Below the pieces are notes generated by a model. It was not told where the DNA came from. It was given only the letters and a program-made list of their open reading frames with translations, and did no database searches. A stretch of 64,000 nucleotides of DNA. Origin: Vulcanimicrobium alpinum (GTDB taxonomy: Bacteria; Vulcanimicrobiota; Vulcanimicrobiia; Vulcanimicrobiales; Vulcanimicrobiaceae). The stretch covers positions 124,001 through 188,000 of the forward strand of contig NZ_AP025523.1 of assembly GCF_027923555.1 (NCBI RefSeq), in the 5' to 3' direction. The stretch's first letter is position 1. Every line of letters starts with the position of its first letter. Shown piece after piece: positions 13,808 through 22,436 of the stretch. A program made the translations under genes and the position numbers.

Positions 13808-13896
13808 CGGCGTCCAAGAGAGGGCGCGTCACGGGGAAGAACGCTCCCGTCGCGAAGCCAACGTTACCCGTCGGCGACACGATTTCCGGAGGCACC

Positions 13897-16800
13897 GTGG
13901 CCAGCACGAAACGTCCCAGCATCGATCTCACCGCGCTCTTTGCGAAGGCGGCCGAGAAAATCGGCGAGCGCGTCGCACCGCTGCCCAACGTCCTCTCGCC
14001 GCGTTCGAAGACGCTGCGGCCGCGCATCGCCGACGCGAAGAAGAGCCCGAGCGTTTGTCCGTACTGCGCGGTCGGCTGCGGCACGATGGTGTACTCGCGC
14101 GACGGCGCGATCCTCGACATCGAAGGGAACCCGGACTCGCCGATCAACGGCGGGACGCTGTGCCCCAAGGGCGCCGCGACGTTCCAGCTGCACGTCAACC
14201 CCAACCGCTGGACGACCGCGAAATATCGCGCGCCGTACGCGAGCGAGTGGACCGACGTCCCCTACGCGTGGGCGATGGAGCGGATCGCGCAGCGCATGAA
14301 AGAGACGCGCGACCGCACCTTCACCGAGTTCGACGAGCAGGGGCGGCGCGTCGCGCGCACCACCGCGATCGCGTCGCTCGGCGGCGCGACGCTCGACAAC
14401 GAAGAGAACTACCTCATCGCGAAACTGTTCCGCTCGATGGGGACCGTCTTCGTCGAGAACCAAGCGCGGATTTGACATAGCTCGACGGTGCCTGGTCTAG
14501 GCACCCTCTACGGCCGCGGCGGCGCGACGACGTTCCTGATGGATCTCGAGCACGCCGACCTCATCCTGATCCAGGGGTCGAACTTCGCCGAGAACCACCC
14601 CGTCGGTTTCCGTTTCGTCACCAAAGCGAAGGAGCGCGGCGCGACGGTGGTGCACGTCGATCCGCGGTTCACGCGCACGAGCGCGCTCGCCGACACGTAC
14701 CTGCCGATCCGCAGCGGGACCGACATCGCGTTCACCGGCGGGATAATCAACTACGTCCTCCAGCACGAAGCGTATTTCAAAGAGTACGTCCTCGCCTACA
14801 CCAACGCGTCGTACCTCATCGACGAGCGGTTCGCCGACACCGAGGACCTCGACGGGATCTTCTCCGGCTTCGATCCGCAGACGGGCAAGTACGACACCGC
14901 GACGTGGAAGTACGAGCTCGAAGACGATTTGTCCGAAGCGCCGCCGACCAACGGCGGGAAAGCATCGAACACCGGCGACGACGACCCCGGCCTGGCGGGC
15001 GGGCACGTCGAGCACAAAGGGCGACGTCCCAAGAAAGACCCGACGTTCGCGCATCCGCGGTGCGTGCTGCAGCTGCTCAAGAAGCACTTCTTGCGCTATA
15101 CGCCCGAAACCATCGAGCGCATCTGCGGAACGCCGCAGGACGCGTTCGTCAAACTCTGCGAGCTGGTGGTGAAGAACAGCGGCCGCGAACGCACGATGAT
15201 GTACTGCTATGCGATGGGCTGGGCGCAGCACACGATCGGCGTGCAGAACATCCGCGCCGCGGCGACGCTGCAGGCGCTGCTCGGCAACACGGGACGTCCG
15301 GGCGGCGGGATCATGGCGCTGCGCGGGCACGCGTCGATCCAGGGCTCGACCGATATCGCGACGCTCTACGATGCGCTCCCCGGCTACATCAAGGCGCCGT
15401 CGCTCGAACGCAACGAGGCGACGTTCGCGCAGTGGAAAGCGAATCAGACGCCGCGCACCGGCTGGTGGGCGAACTGGCCGAAGTACGCGGTTTCCCAGCT
15501 CAAAGCGTGGTACGGCGACGCGGCGCGCGCCGACAACGACTGGGCGTTCGACTACCTTCCGAAGAACACGGGCGACCATTCGCACCAGCCGATGTTCTTC
15601 ACCATGAAGGACGGCGGGATCGACGGCCTGCTCCTGTTCGGACAGAATCCGGCGGTCGGCGGTCAGAACGCCGCGCTGCAGCGCGCGGGCCTCGGGCAGT
15701 TGAAGTGGCTCGTGTGTCAGGACCTTTTCGAGACCGAGAGCGCGGCGTTCTGGAAACGCGAAGGCGTCGATCCCGCGACGATCGGGACGGAGGTCTTCTT
15801 CATGCCGGCCGCGGGCGTCGCCGAGAAGGCCGGGACCTTCACCAACACGATGCGCCTGGTGCAGTTCCACGAGAAGGCGGTCGATCCGCCGGGCGACGCG
15901 CGCAGCGATCTCGCGTTCGTGTGGAACCTCGGCCGCCGGCTCAAAGAGCTCTATCGCGAGTCGACGCGCGCGATCGACCGCCCGATCCTCGACGTGACGT
16001 GGAACTACGAGTCCGACGACCCGCACGAACGGCGGCAGGGCGAACCCGACGTCGAGAAGATCATGCGCGAGATCAACGGCTTCGACGTTGCGAGCGGCGA
16101 GCAGATGAAAACGTTCGCCGATCTCAAGGACGACGGTTCGACGGCGGCAGGCGCGTGGATCTACACCGGCTATTTCCCGTCGAAGGAGCAGAATCTCACC
16201 CGCCGGCGCAAGGGCGATGCGTGGGTGAGCCCGGAGTGGGCGTGGGCGTGGCCCGCGAACCGGCGCAACCTCTACAACCGCGCGTCGGCCGATCCCGACG
16301 GCAAGCCGTGGAGCGAGCGCAAGAAGTACGTGTGGTGGGACGAGGAGCAGAAGAAATGGACCGGCTACGACGTCCCCGACTTCCCGGTCGCGAAGCCGCC
16401 GTCGTTCCGCGCGCAGCCAGGCGCGGGCGGCGTCGACGCGCACGACGGCAGCGCGCCGTTCATCATGCAGGAGTACGGCGTCGCCGAGATCTTCGGCGTG
16501 CAGGGGACGGTCGACGGTCCGTTCCCGACGCATTACGAACCGCGTGAGTCCCCGGTGCCCAACGCCCTCTATCCGCACCAGCAATACAATCCCGTGCTCA
16601 AGGAATGGCGCCGCCGCGACAACCCCTATCACGCGATCGGCGATCCGAAGTATCCATACGTGCTCTCGACGTACCGGCTCACCGAGCATCATCTCACCGG
16701 CGCGATGACGCGCTGGCTGCCGTGGCTGGCGGAACTGCAGCCCGAGGCGTTCTGCGAGATCTCACCCGAACTCGCGGTCGAACTGGGCATCCGCAACGGC

Positions 16801-17235
16801 GACTGGGTGACGATCGAGACGGCGCGCGGCGAGGTGGAGGCCAAGGCGCTCGTCACCGGCCGCGTCGCGCCGTTCAAGATCGGCCCCAAACAATGGGTCC
16901 ATCAGATCGGGATGCCGATCCACTACGGCTATCAGGGCGTGGTGACGGGCGACGCGGCGAACGTGCTGCCGCCACTCGTCGCCGATCCCAACGTCTCGAT
17001 CCACGAAGCCAAGGCGTTCACGTGCAACCTGCGCCTGGGGCGCCGCGGCGCGGCGCACGAGGGACCGACGTGGCTCCCCGTCCCCGAGGACGAACGTACG
17101 CCGCTCGGCACCCCGCAGCGCGGCGGCCGCGTCGAAGCCGGGACGGCCGAGACGATCGACACCGCGATCACCTCGCCGCAAACGATCATGGAAGCGTCGC
17201 AGCGCGTCCACGGCTTCACGGAGAACGAACGGTAG
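13897..17235 (+). CDS. fdhA: Selenocysteine-containing formate dehydrogenase, catalytic (alpha) subunit
   Basis: Oxidises formate to CO2 at a Mo/W-bis-pterin centre. One 1112-residue frame read through an in-frame TGA at 14473-14475 (codon 193) as selenocysteine. Flanks NQARI-U-HSSTVPGLGTLYG match the active-site segment of Sec formate dehydrogenases. The 4Fe-4S ligands are Cys54, Cys57, Cys61 (CPYCAVGC) and Cys89 (LCPKG); later MopB segments include AMGWAQHTIGVQNI and NTGRPGGGIMALRGH. GTG start with GGAGG 4 nt upstream. A bSECIS follows the TGA. No twin-arginine signal is visible, so a cytoplasmic-facing enzyme is likely. First gene of an fdhA-fdhB-nrfD operon. Confidence 0.95.
14476..14505 (+). 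promoter_or_regulatory. Bacterial SECIS element for selenocysteine insertion
   Basis: Directly after the in-frame TGA is a perfect 7-bp stem (14487-14493 with 14499-14505) capped by the pentaloop GGTCT (14494-14498). The SelB-contacting loop of the E. coli fdhF SECIS, as I recall it, also reads GGUCU. Here the loop starts 18 nt after the TGA, the same distance as in fdhF. It lies inside the coding sequence and encodes TVPGLGT of the protein. Confidence 0.85.
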
Positions 17236-17237
17236 CG

Positions 17238-18032
17238 ATGGACATCGACCTCACCCAGCCCAAGATGGGATTCTTCACCGATGTGACGCTGTGCATCGGA
17301 TGCAAGGCGTGCGAGGTCGCGTGCAAGCAGTGGAATCAACTGCCGTCCGACGGCTACGCGCTCTCCGGCAACTCGTACGACAACACCAACCGGCTCTCGT
17401 CGACGACGTGGCGGCACGTCGCGTTCGTCGAGCAGATGGATCGCGAGACGCCCGCGGCGTCGCGCTGGATGATGATGTCGGACGTCTGCAAGCACTGCAC
17501 CAACGCCGGCTGTTTCGAGGCGTGTCCGACCGGCGCGATCGTGCGCAACGAGTTCGACGACGTCTACGTGCAGCCCGACATCTGCAACGGCTGCGGCTAC
17601 TGCGTTCCGTCGTGTCCGTTCGGCGTCGTCGCCGTGCAGCCGAAGGCGGGCGTCGCGCAGAAATGCACGCTCTGCTACGACCGCCAGAAAGACGGGCTCG
17701 AGCCCGCATGCGCGAAGTCGTGCCCGACCGACTCGATCACGTTCGGCCCCGTCGACGAACTGCGTGCGAAGGCGCAAGCGCGCGTCGAAGCCCTGCGCGA
17801 ACGTGGGACCGAGGTGCGCTTGTACGGCGTCGACGGCGAGGAGACGAAGGACGTCGGCCCGCTCAACGCGTTTTTCCTGATCCCCGATCGCCCCGAGGTC
17901 TTCAACCTGCCGCCGAAGCCGGTGCTGCCGTCAAGGTTCCAGCCGGCGGCGTATACGGCGGGGCTCGCGGCGGCGCTCGCGATGGCGCTCGTCGGCGCGG
18001 CGGTGTTCCGCCCGTCGCGCGAGCGGGCGTAG
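17238..18032 (+). CDS. fdhB: Formate dehydrogenase iron-sulfur (beta) subunit
   Basis: 264-residue electron-transfer subunit with four ferredoxin-type clusters. Ligand groups: CIGCKACEVAC (Cys19-29), CKHCTNAGCFEACP, CNGCGYCVPSCP and CTLCYDRQ...CAKSCP. A single C-terminal hydrophobic helix (AGLAAALAMALVGAAVF) anchors it in the membrane, as in FdnH-type subunits. ATG start 2 nt after the alpha-subunit stop; 1 nt before the NrfD-like gene. It would pass electrons from the alpha subunit to the membrane subunit. Confidence 0.93.
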   Translation: MDIDLTQPKMGFFTDVTLCIGCKACEVACKQWNQLPSDGYALSGNSYDNTNRLSSTTWRHVAFVEQMDRETPAASRWMMMSDVCKHCTNAGCFEACPTGAIVRNEFDDVYVQPDICNGCGYCVPSCPFGVVAVQPKAGVAQKCTLCYDRQKDGLEPACAKSCPTDSITFGPVDELRAKAQARVEALRERGTEVRLYGVDGEETKDVGPLNAFFLIPDRPEVFNLPPKPVLPSRFQPAAYTAGLAAALAMALVGAAVFRPSRERA

Positions 18033-21456: not shown

Positions 21457-21517
21457 ACAGGGACTGACCCCGAAGAGGTGGGTGTTCGACGCCTACTTCT
21501 CCGGAGGTCAGCCCTGT
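21457..21517 (+). promoter_or_regulatory. Inverted repeat covering the ribosome site of the transposase gene
   Basis: ACAGGGACTGACC (21457-21469) pairs with GGTCAGCCCTGT (21506-21517) apart from one bulged base. The right arm starts inside the GGAGG ribosome site (21503-21507) and ends within the GTG start codon (21516). In mRNA begun outside the element it would hide both, as in IS elements that block read-through expression of transposase. The left arm may also be part of the terminal repeat of the element. Confidence 0.55.
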
Positions 21518-22436
21518 GATTATGCACCCTCAGGCCCGCACGACGCCCCTTATCCGGCGGGAAATTGTCGCTTTGGTTCAGGCCGGTGAGGCCGTTGCCG
21601 CGGTGGCTCGGCGCTTCAAGATCAGCCGGCCGACGGTGTACAAGTGGCTTGCCCGCTTTGCGCAGGCCGGAGAGTCTGGTCTGCGTGATCGGCGACCCGT
21701 TGCAATTCGCTTTCCGACGCGCGTCCGAAAGGCGGTTGAACGGCAGATCGACCGGCTTCGCCGCACTCGCCGGCTACTCGGTTGGCAAATCGCCGAAGCA
21801 CTGTCGATGGCGCGCTCGACGGTCATCAAGGTACTCAAGCGGCTCAACATCGCGCGTCTGCGCGACCTCGAGCCGGCCCGCTTTACGCAGCGTTATGAGT
21901 ATCGCCGACCCGGCGAGCTCGTTCACATTGACATCAAGAAGATCGCACGATTTGAGCGCGTGGGGCACCGCATCCACGGCGATCGCACGAAGTGCTCCAG
22001 GCGCGTCGGCTACGACGTCATCTTTGTCGCGGTCGACGATGCCAGCCGCCGGACTGAAACACGCGTATACACGCGGGAAGACGCGACCTCGGCCGCAGAC
22101 TTCTTGCGGCGGCTCGCGATTCTTTACGCTCGTCGCGGCGTGCGAATCGAACGAGTCATGACTGACAACGGCAAAGTGTTCAGCTCGAACGCGTTCGAGT
22201 CAATGATGAGGTCGATCGGTGCGCGACACATTTTCACGCCGCCCTACACGCCGCGTTGGAACGGCAAAGCGGAGCGCTTCATCCAGACCATGCTGCGCGA
22301 GTGGGCGTACGCGGTCGCTTATCGCACCAGCGACGAGCGCCGAGACGCCCTCCCGGCGTGGCTCCGGTACTACAACGAGGACCGCCGGCACACGGCCATC
22401 AACTACCCCCGCCTCACGTTGGGCCGCGGCCCGTAA
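21516..22436 (+). CDS. IS481 family transposase
   Basis: 306 residues from GTG 21516, with GGAGG 8 nt upstream. N-terminal helix-turn-helix (AAVARRFKISRPTVYKWLAR), a second HTH region (LLGWQIAEALSMARSTVIKV), then an rve/DDE core: first Asp in LVHIDIKKI, second in VMTDNGKVF, Glu in RWNGKAERFIQTM. The C-terminus (AINYPRLTLGRGP) is shorter than in most IS481 enzymes, which usually continue past this point. Catalytic residues are intact. Confidence 0.9.
   Translation: MIMHPQARTTPLIRREIVALVQAGEAVAAVARRFKISRPTVYKWLARFAQAGESGLRDRRPVAIRFPTRVRKAVERQIDRLRRTRRLLGWQIAEALSMARSTVIKVLKRLNIARLRDLEPARFTQRYEYRRPGELVHIDIKKIARFERVGHRIHGDRTKCSRRVGYDVIFVAVDDASRRTETRVYTREDATSAADFLRRLAILYARRGVRIERVMTDNGKVFSSNAFESMMRSIGARHIFTPPYTPRWNGKAERFIQTMLREWAYAVAYRTSDERRDALPAWLRYYNEDRRHTAINYPRLTLGRGP

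Follow-up and report, generated by a model that had tools for sequence, protein, structure and literature searches.

A selenocysteine formate dehydrogenase operon in Vulcanimicrobium alpinum, from a clade of enzymes whose genomes lack detectable FdhD

We analyzed a 64,000-nucleotide stretch of the Vulcanimicrobium alpinum genome (contig NZ_AP025523.1, positions 124,001 to 188,000), called the window here. It carries fdhA, fdhB and an nrfD-type gene in a row, followed by a carrier gene on the opposite strand. The features of the locus, in window coordinates, are as follows:

13888 to 13892, plus strand: GGAGG, a Shine-Dalgarno-like sequence 4 nt 5' of the GTG start, read from the sequence
13897 to 17235, plus strand: fdhA, alpha subunit of a Sec formate dehydrogenase (FDH-N type), 1,112 aa with U193; GTG start, TAG stop at 17233-17235
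14473 to 14475, plus strand: in-frame TGA, the Sec193 codon; TGA in all close homologues, and in 1h0h the active-site Sec (X) falls at this position
14487 to 14505, plus strand: bSECIS hairpin; stem GGTGCCT/AGGCACC (14487-14493/14499-14505), loop GGTCT (GGUCU in RNA; 14494-14498)
17238 to 18032, plus strand: fdhB, 4Fe-4S electron-transfer (beta) subunit, 264 aa with a hydrophobic C-terminal segment; Pfam Fer4_11, 80.9 bits
18034 to 19083, plus strand: nrfD-type membrane (gamma) subunit, 349 aa, a probable quinone-reactive anchor; Pfam NrfD, 86.5 bits
19201 to 20613, minus strand: MFS transporter of the oxalate/formate/lactate (OFA) group, a candidate formate/monocarboxylate carrier; NF049980 (L-lactate MFS transporter), 363 bits (cut-off 320)

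The TGA at 14473-14475 (codon 193) is the sole stop between the GTG at 13897 and the TAG at 17233-17235, and the read-through protein around it runs ...VFVENQARI-U-HSSTVPGLG.... The initial annotation had described one frame broken only at this codon, between NQARI and HSSTVPGL, and was correct in all its coordinates. As it also predicted, mechanical ORF calling splits the gene into ORFs of exactly 192 aa (13897-14475) and 915 aa (14488-17235). We compared FdhA with curated families and solved structures. The highest-scoring curated family was NF041513 (formate_DH_Act; 1476 bits, cut-off 1400), and the cut-off of TIGR01553 (FDH-N alpha) was passed as well (1053 bits, cut-off 814). In a phmmer comparison with 1h0h_A (2e-241), the selenocysteine of 1h0h aligned on the TGA, which bears out the claim that this codon occupies the Sec position of Sec formate dehydrogenases. 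The best solved relatives (1h0h, the 8cm4/6sdr series, and 1kqf) are all Sec-containing formate dehydrogenases. Active-site residues K91, Sec193, H194, and R453 are conserved in the alignment. Within the window's FDH clade the dN/dS of fdhA is ~0.07-0.25, and the frame is therefore under purifying selection.

The hairpin has the proposed geometry: the 7-bp stem begins 11 nt past the TGA, and the GGUCU loop 18 nt past it. The rules published for bSECIS elements (PMC13188914) call for (i) a loop of 3-9 nt with a G in its first two positions; (ii) a stem of 4-16 bp; (iii) a distance from UGA to loop of 16-37 nt; and (iv) a minimum free energy <= -7.5 kcal/mol. The hairpin lies within every one of these limits, with a 5-nt GGUCU loop, 7 bp, 18 nt, and a fold of -11.8 kcal/mol. 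To this extent the hairpin deserves the description "textbook" that it had been given; it departs from the description in that all stem bases are paired and there is no bulged U like that in the E. coli hairpins, although U17 is present, opposite A31. A bulged U in the upper stem lies outside the general bSECIS rules, and the bulge appeared only in the E. coli folds. The folding z-score was only -1.7 to -1.9 on a short piece and +0.5 on 63 nt. Of the window's 1,280 TGA trinucleotides, 2 are followed by a stem in the same 7-bp register and 34 by a less strict bSECIS-like stem. Because the thermodynamics are modest and the chance of such a register is not nil, the hairpin alone is suggestive, and conservation and covariation are decisive.

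We also scored the site with covariance models, a check that had been suggested along with the original claim. Rfam SECIS_3 gave 31.1 bits (E 1.7e-5) and so did not reach its gathering score of 63, and a scan of the whole window at Rfam gathering thresholds returned no matches. With a model built in this analysis, the site was the best SECIS match genome-wide at 50.9 bits. The runner-up, at 16 bits (E 1.8), begins at model position 6 and is not accompanied by a TGA; this genome-wide search found no further selenoproteins with the same SECIS type.

For comparison, we drew on 118 genomes from the phylum plus 80 named loci spread over several phyla, which together yielded 103 TGA loci (a few genomes were counted twice) and 7 TGC (Cys) loci. 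An FdhA homologue (E <= 1e-50) was present in 52 of the 118 genomes, nearly always with one TGA at the Sec codon. Among the TGA loci, the inner four stem pairs form in 103/103, and every one of the 103 has T at position 24 (counted from the U of UGA), a loop U that is the synonymous third base of codon 200, although GGT accounts for only 5 of the 98 glycine codons of the window gene. Most of the seven Cys homologues, by contrast, have C or G at position 24, and in this set the helix is interrupted at 15-33, 18-30, 19-29, and 21-27. Across 40 distinct sequences, 96.1% of cells were paired and 29 were double-changed, versus 7.5 in shuffles; the covariation score was reached by 0 of 500 shuffles, and sliding the register by one base lowered pairing to 50-56%. 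The hairpin thus covaries in Sec homologues and is lost in Cys homologues. Three matches contained two TGAs (G102 among them), and we considered a second Sec in these relatives; we rejected it for loci L031 and L032, where the extra TGA is the normal gene end.

The genome is a single contig of 3,508,363 bases (99.65% complete), in which the initial annotation had predicted selA, selB, selC (tRNA-Sec), and selD. All four were found, each over its cut-off. tRNA-Sec lies at 349472-349561 (77.1 bits, cut-off 47), and ARAGORN calls it SeC with anticodon tca. SelA (selA, 293483-294817) scored 488 bits. selB follows directly from 294847; SelB scored 291 bits, or 318 once the C-terminal piece is included. 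It is full-length: the frame continues from MHVVGTAGHVDHGKSS through the end of the C-terminal region. SelD (selD, 3111960-3112886; 377 bits) is of the Cys type. SelA was detected in 95/118 genomes of the phylum, which makes Sec decoding the rule there, and in 51 of the 52 FDH genomes, the exception being 83% complete. We note selA in 44 of the 66 phylum genomes that lack this FDH, which means that the phylum must have other selenoproteins. The literature searched contained no paper joining Eremiobacterota and selenocysteine.

We considered whether the TGA might be a true stop or a sequencing error, leaving a pseudogene or two split proteins, as the two called ORFs would suggest. Dozens of genomes, sequenced independently and belonging to several phyla, have the same TGA and a covarying hairpin; the window's genome has a complete sel machinery, and the frame is under purifying selection. 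Conservation refutes this reading, which we hold to be highly improbable, and a sequencing error at the TGA is excluded. The finding that the initial annotation had said would count against it, namely Cys in close relatives with a lost SECIS and a sequencing error at this base, is absent: relatives at 83, 71, and 70% identity have both TGA and hairpin, and Cys versions are confined to distant lineages, where the hairpin has decayed. An organism-wide reassignment of TGA to an amino acid (code 4-like) would account for the open frame, which is all that speaks for it. The neighboring MFS, PolX, and nicotinate phosphoribosyltransferase genes terminate in TGA, which indicates that TGA is otherwise a stop in this genome, and the tRNA-Sec carries a tca anticodon. 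Reassignment is refuted by these observations, and we give it even less credence than a stop or an error. fdhA is a genuine Sec formate dehydrogenase gene, another member of a well-known family and unsurprising in itself. For annotation, the point is that a selenoprotein gene is cut in two by ordinary gene callers.

As judged from sequence, the best explanation is that fdhA-fdhB-nrfD is a functional operon encoding a Mo/W-bis-MGD, Sec-dependent formate dehydrogenase of the FDH-N family with UGA 193 read as Sec, to which we assign a probability of roughly 0.96. UGA 193 would be decoded by SelB-GTP-Sec-tRNA(Sec), tethered by the hairpin starting 11 nt downstream. The predicted active site consists of Sec193, His194, and Arg453 and would convert formate to CO2. 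The Fe-S clusters of FdhA and FdhB would hand the electrons on to the NrfD-type membrane subunit, from which they would reach quinone. By inspection only, we saw no twin-arginine motif before the first cluster Cys of FdhA, so that the protein does not qualify as a Tat-exported periplasmic FDH-N, and there is no in-frame start upstream of the GTG at 13897. For these reasons, the catalytic side of FdhA probably faces the cytoplasm, in a quinone-linked arrangement.

Among 61 large loci, FdhB neighbors fdhA in 59 and NrfD does so in 48. Against TIGR01582 (FDH-beta), FdhB of the window scored 170 bits, below the cut-off of 335. An OFA-group MFS carrier occurs within 4 kb of the fdhA operons of four other genomes (G091, G062, G030, and G048) in varying orientation, which suggests a functional link; the system probably receives a monocarboxylate, formate for instance, through the adjacent carrier. 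The window's carrier fell below the cut-off of TIGR00890 (225 bits), and because a lactate-type carrier has the best support among the family models, formate would be a presumptive substrate.

We compared the locus with well-studied systems. In E. coli K-12, the GUCU of both fdhF and fdnG starts at position 23 when the U of UGA is numbered 1, as in the window, so the claimed agreement with fdhF spacing is borne out. The fdhF bSECIS shares the 18-nt spacing to the loop, the loop GGUC(U), and U17, G23, and U24 at equal positions; the window differs in its perfect 7-bp stem, its other stem sequence, and the missing bulged U. E. coli FdnG/FdnGHI (1kqf) and the Nitratidesulfovibrio/Desulfovibrio FDHs (1h0h, 6sdr) share the alpha-subunit family TIGR01553, the Sec site, and GUCU at +23. 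Unlike these systems, the window has an FdhA in which inspection found no twin-arginine motif, a stem with no bulged U, and a genome with no detectable FdhD, and unlike FdnGHI it has an NrfD-type membrane subunit in place of FdnI, a cytochrome b. Named relatives in Actinomycetota, Chloroflexota, Myxococcota, Rubrobacter, and others have Sec, the hairpin, FdhB, and mostly NrfD in common with the window; they are set apart from the window's clade by FdhD, which all 12 genomes tested outside the phylum possess.

FdhD is an FDH-specific cofactor sulfurtransferase that supplies the sulfido ligand and is needed for FDH activity in E. coli (PMC10609526), and it is indispensable for FDH activity in Methylorubrum extorquens (PMC13197769). 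It is an accessory factor, outside the family definition. The complete genome of the window gave no match to FdhD (PF02634), and a genus-mate FdhD query gave a best E of 0.01 over 98 residues, which is not credible. The same query found nothing credible in G091, G030, G062, G108, G022, G036, G042, G052, G085, G096, or G049, and it detected FdhD in the positive controls G066 and G048. Of the phylum's 52 genomes with an FDH, 39 have FdhD, in some cases (G048 and G044) directly after nrfD. FDH-bearing genomes with undetectable FdhD were that of the window (G000, whole genome), G091, G030, G062, G108, G022, G036, G042, G052, and G085; they represent one monophyletic FDH clade and at least one further lineage (G042/G085). 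In the FDH tree, the enzyme of the window and those of G091, G030, G062, and G108 form one clade with 100% support in which all five are FdhD-less. Its sister clade is entirely FdhD-bearing, and five state changes suffice on this tree, in which outgroup rows beyond the 12 tested were labelled FdhD-bearing by assumption.

One reading of this pattern is that UGA is read as Sec while the protein is no longer a formate dehydrogenase in this clade, having another substrate or being inactive for want of FdhD. The absence of FdhD from a complete genome and from all five clade members fits such a loss, as does the paper on V. alpinum WC8-2, the probable source strain (PMC9758169), which mentions neither formate nor selenium and contains no report of growth on formate. 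Yet the catalytic Sec, His, Arg, and Lys are intact, MoaA was present in 10 of 10 genomes checked, the operon is preserved with its three genes and shows purifying selection, and Sec and SECIS are kept, unlike in the Cys lineages. We consider a loss of FDH function unlikely and prefer a functional formate dehydrogenase. Since key active-site residues are kept, maturation in the clade probably proceeds without canonical FdhD. We see about an even chance that these enzymes are matured without FdhD, by another sulfurtransferase or through an enzyme that tolerates its absence; FdhD may also be too diverged in these genomes for detection by HMMER. Should FdhD-free maturation be true, the clade would represent a naturally FdhD-independent line of selenocysteine FDHs, embedded among relatives that depend on FdhD. 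The absence of FdhD matters more than the Sec site; FdhD is taken as essential for FDH sulfuration. A review (PMC10609526) already raises, as a caveat, organisms that have an FDH but no fdhD, and the clade is thus a clean instance of a known caveat and no new phenomenon. It offers an example that is monophyletic and conserved, comes with a complete genome, and can be set against close relatives that have FdhD.

A replacement for FdhD beside the operon was sought and rejected, as fdhB, nrfD, and the MFS carrier are the only genes that the FdhD-less clade has in common around the FDH; genes upstream of the operon are common only within the genus. Residue 222 of fdhA (14560-14562) is Cys in 37 of 39 FdhD-bearing rows, seven of them outgroup rows labelled by assumption, and Leu or Ala in 8 of 9 FdhD-less rows. 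E. coli FdnG, which we take to be FdhD-requiring, appears to have Leu at the matching position. We therefore dropped residue 222 as a marker of FdhD dependence, and its distribution may be a phylogenetic coincidence. The FDHs of the window genome and its genus-mate G091 have their closest counterparts (~70% identity) in a different family of the order, and the FDHs found elsewhere in the genus are different ones (46-53%). This kinship across family lines suggests transfer or differential loss. Just beyond the FDH neighborhood, at 21516-22436, lies a transposase/integrase-like ORF with, by eye, a helix-turn-helix followed by an rve-like region.
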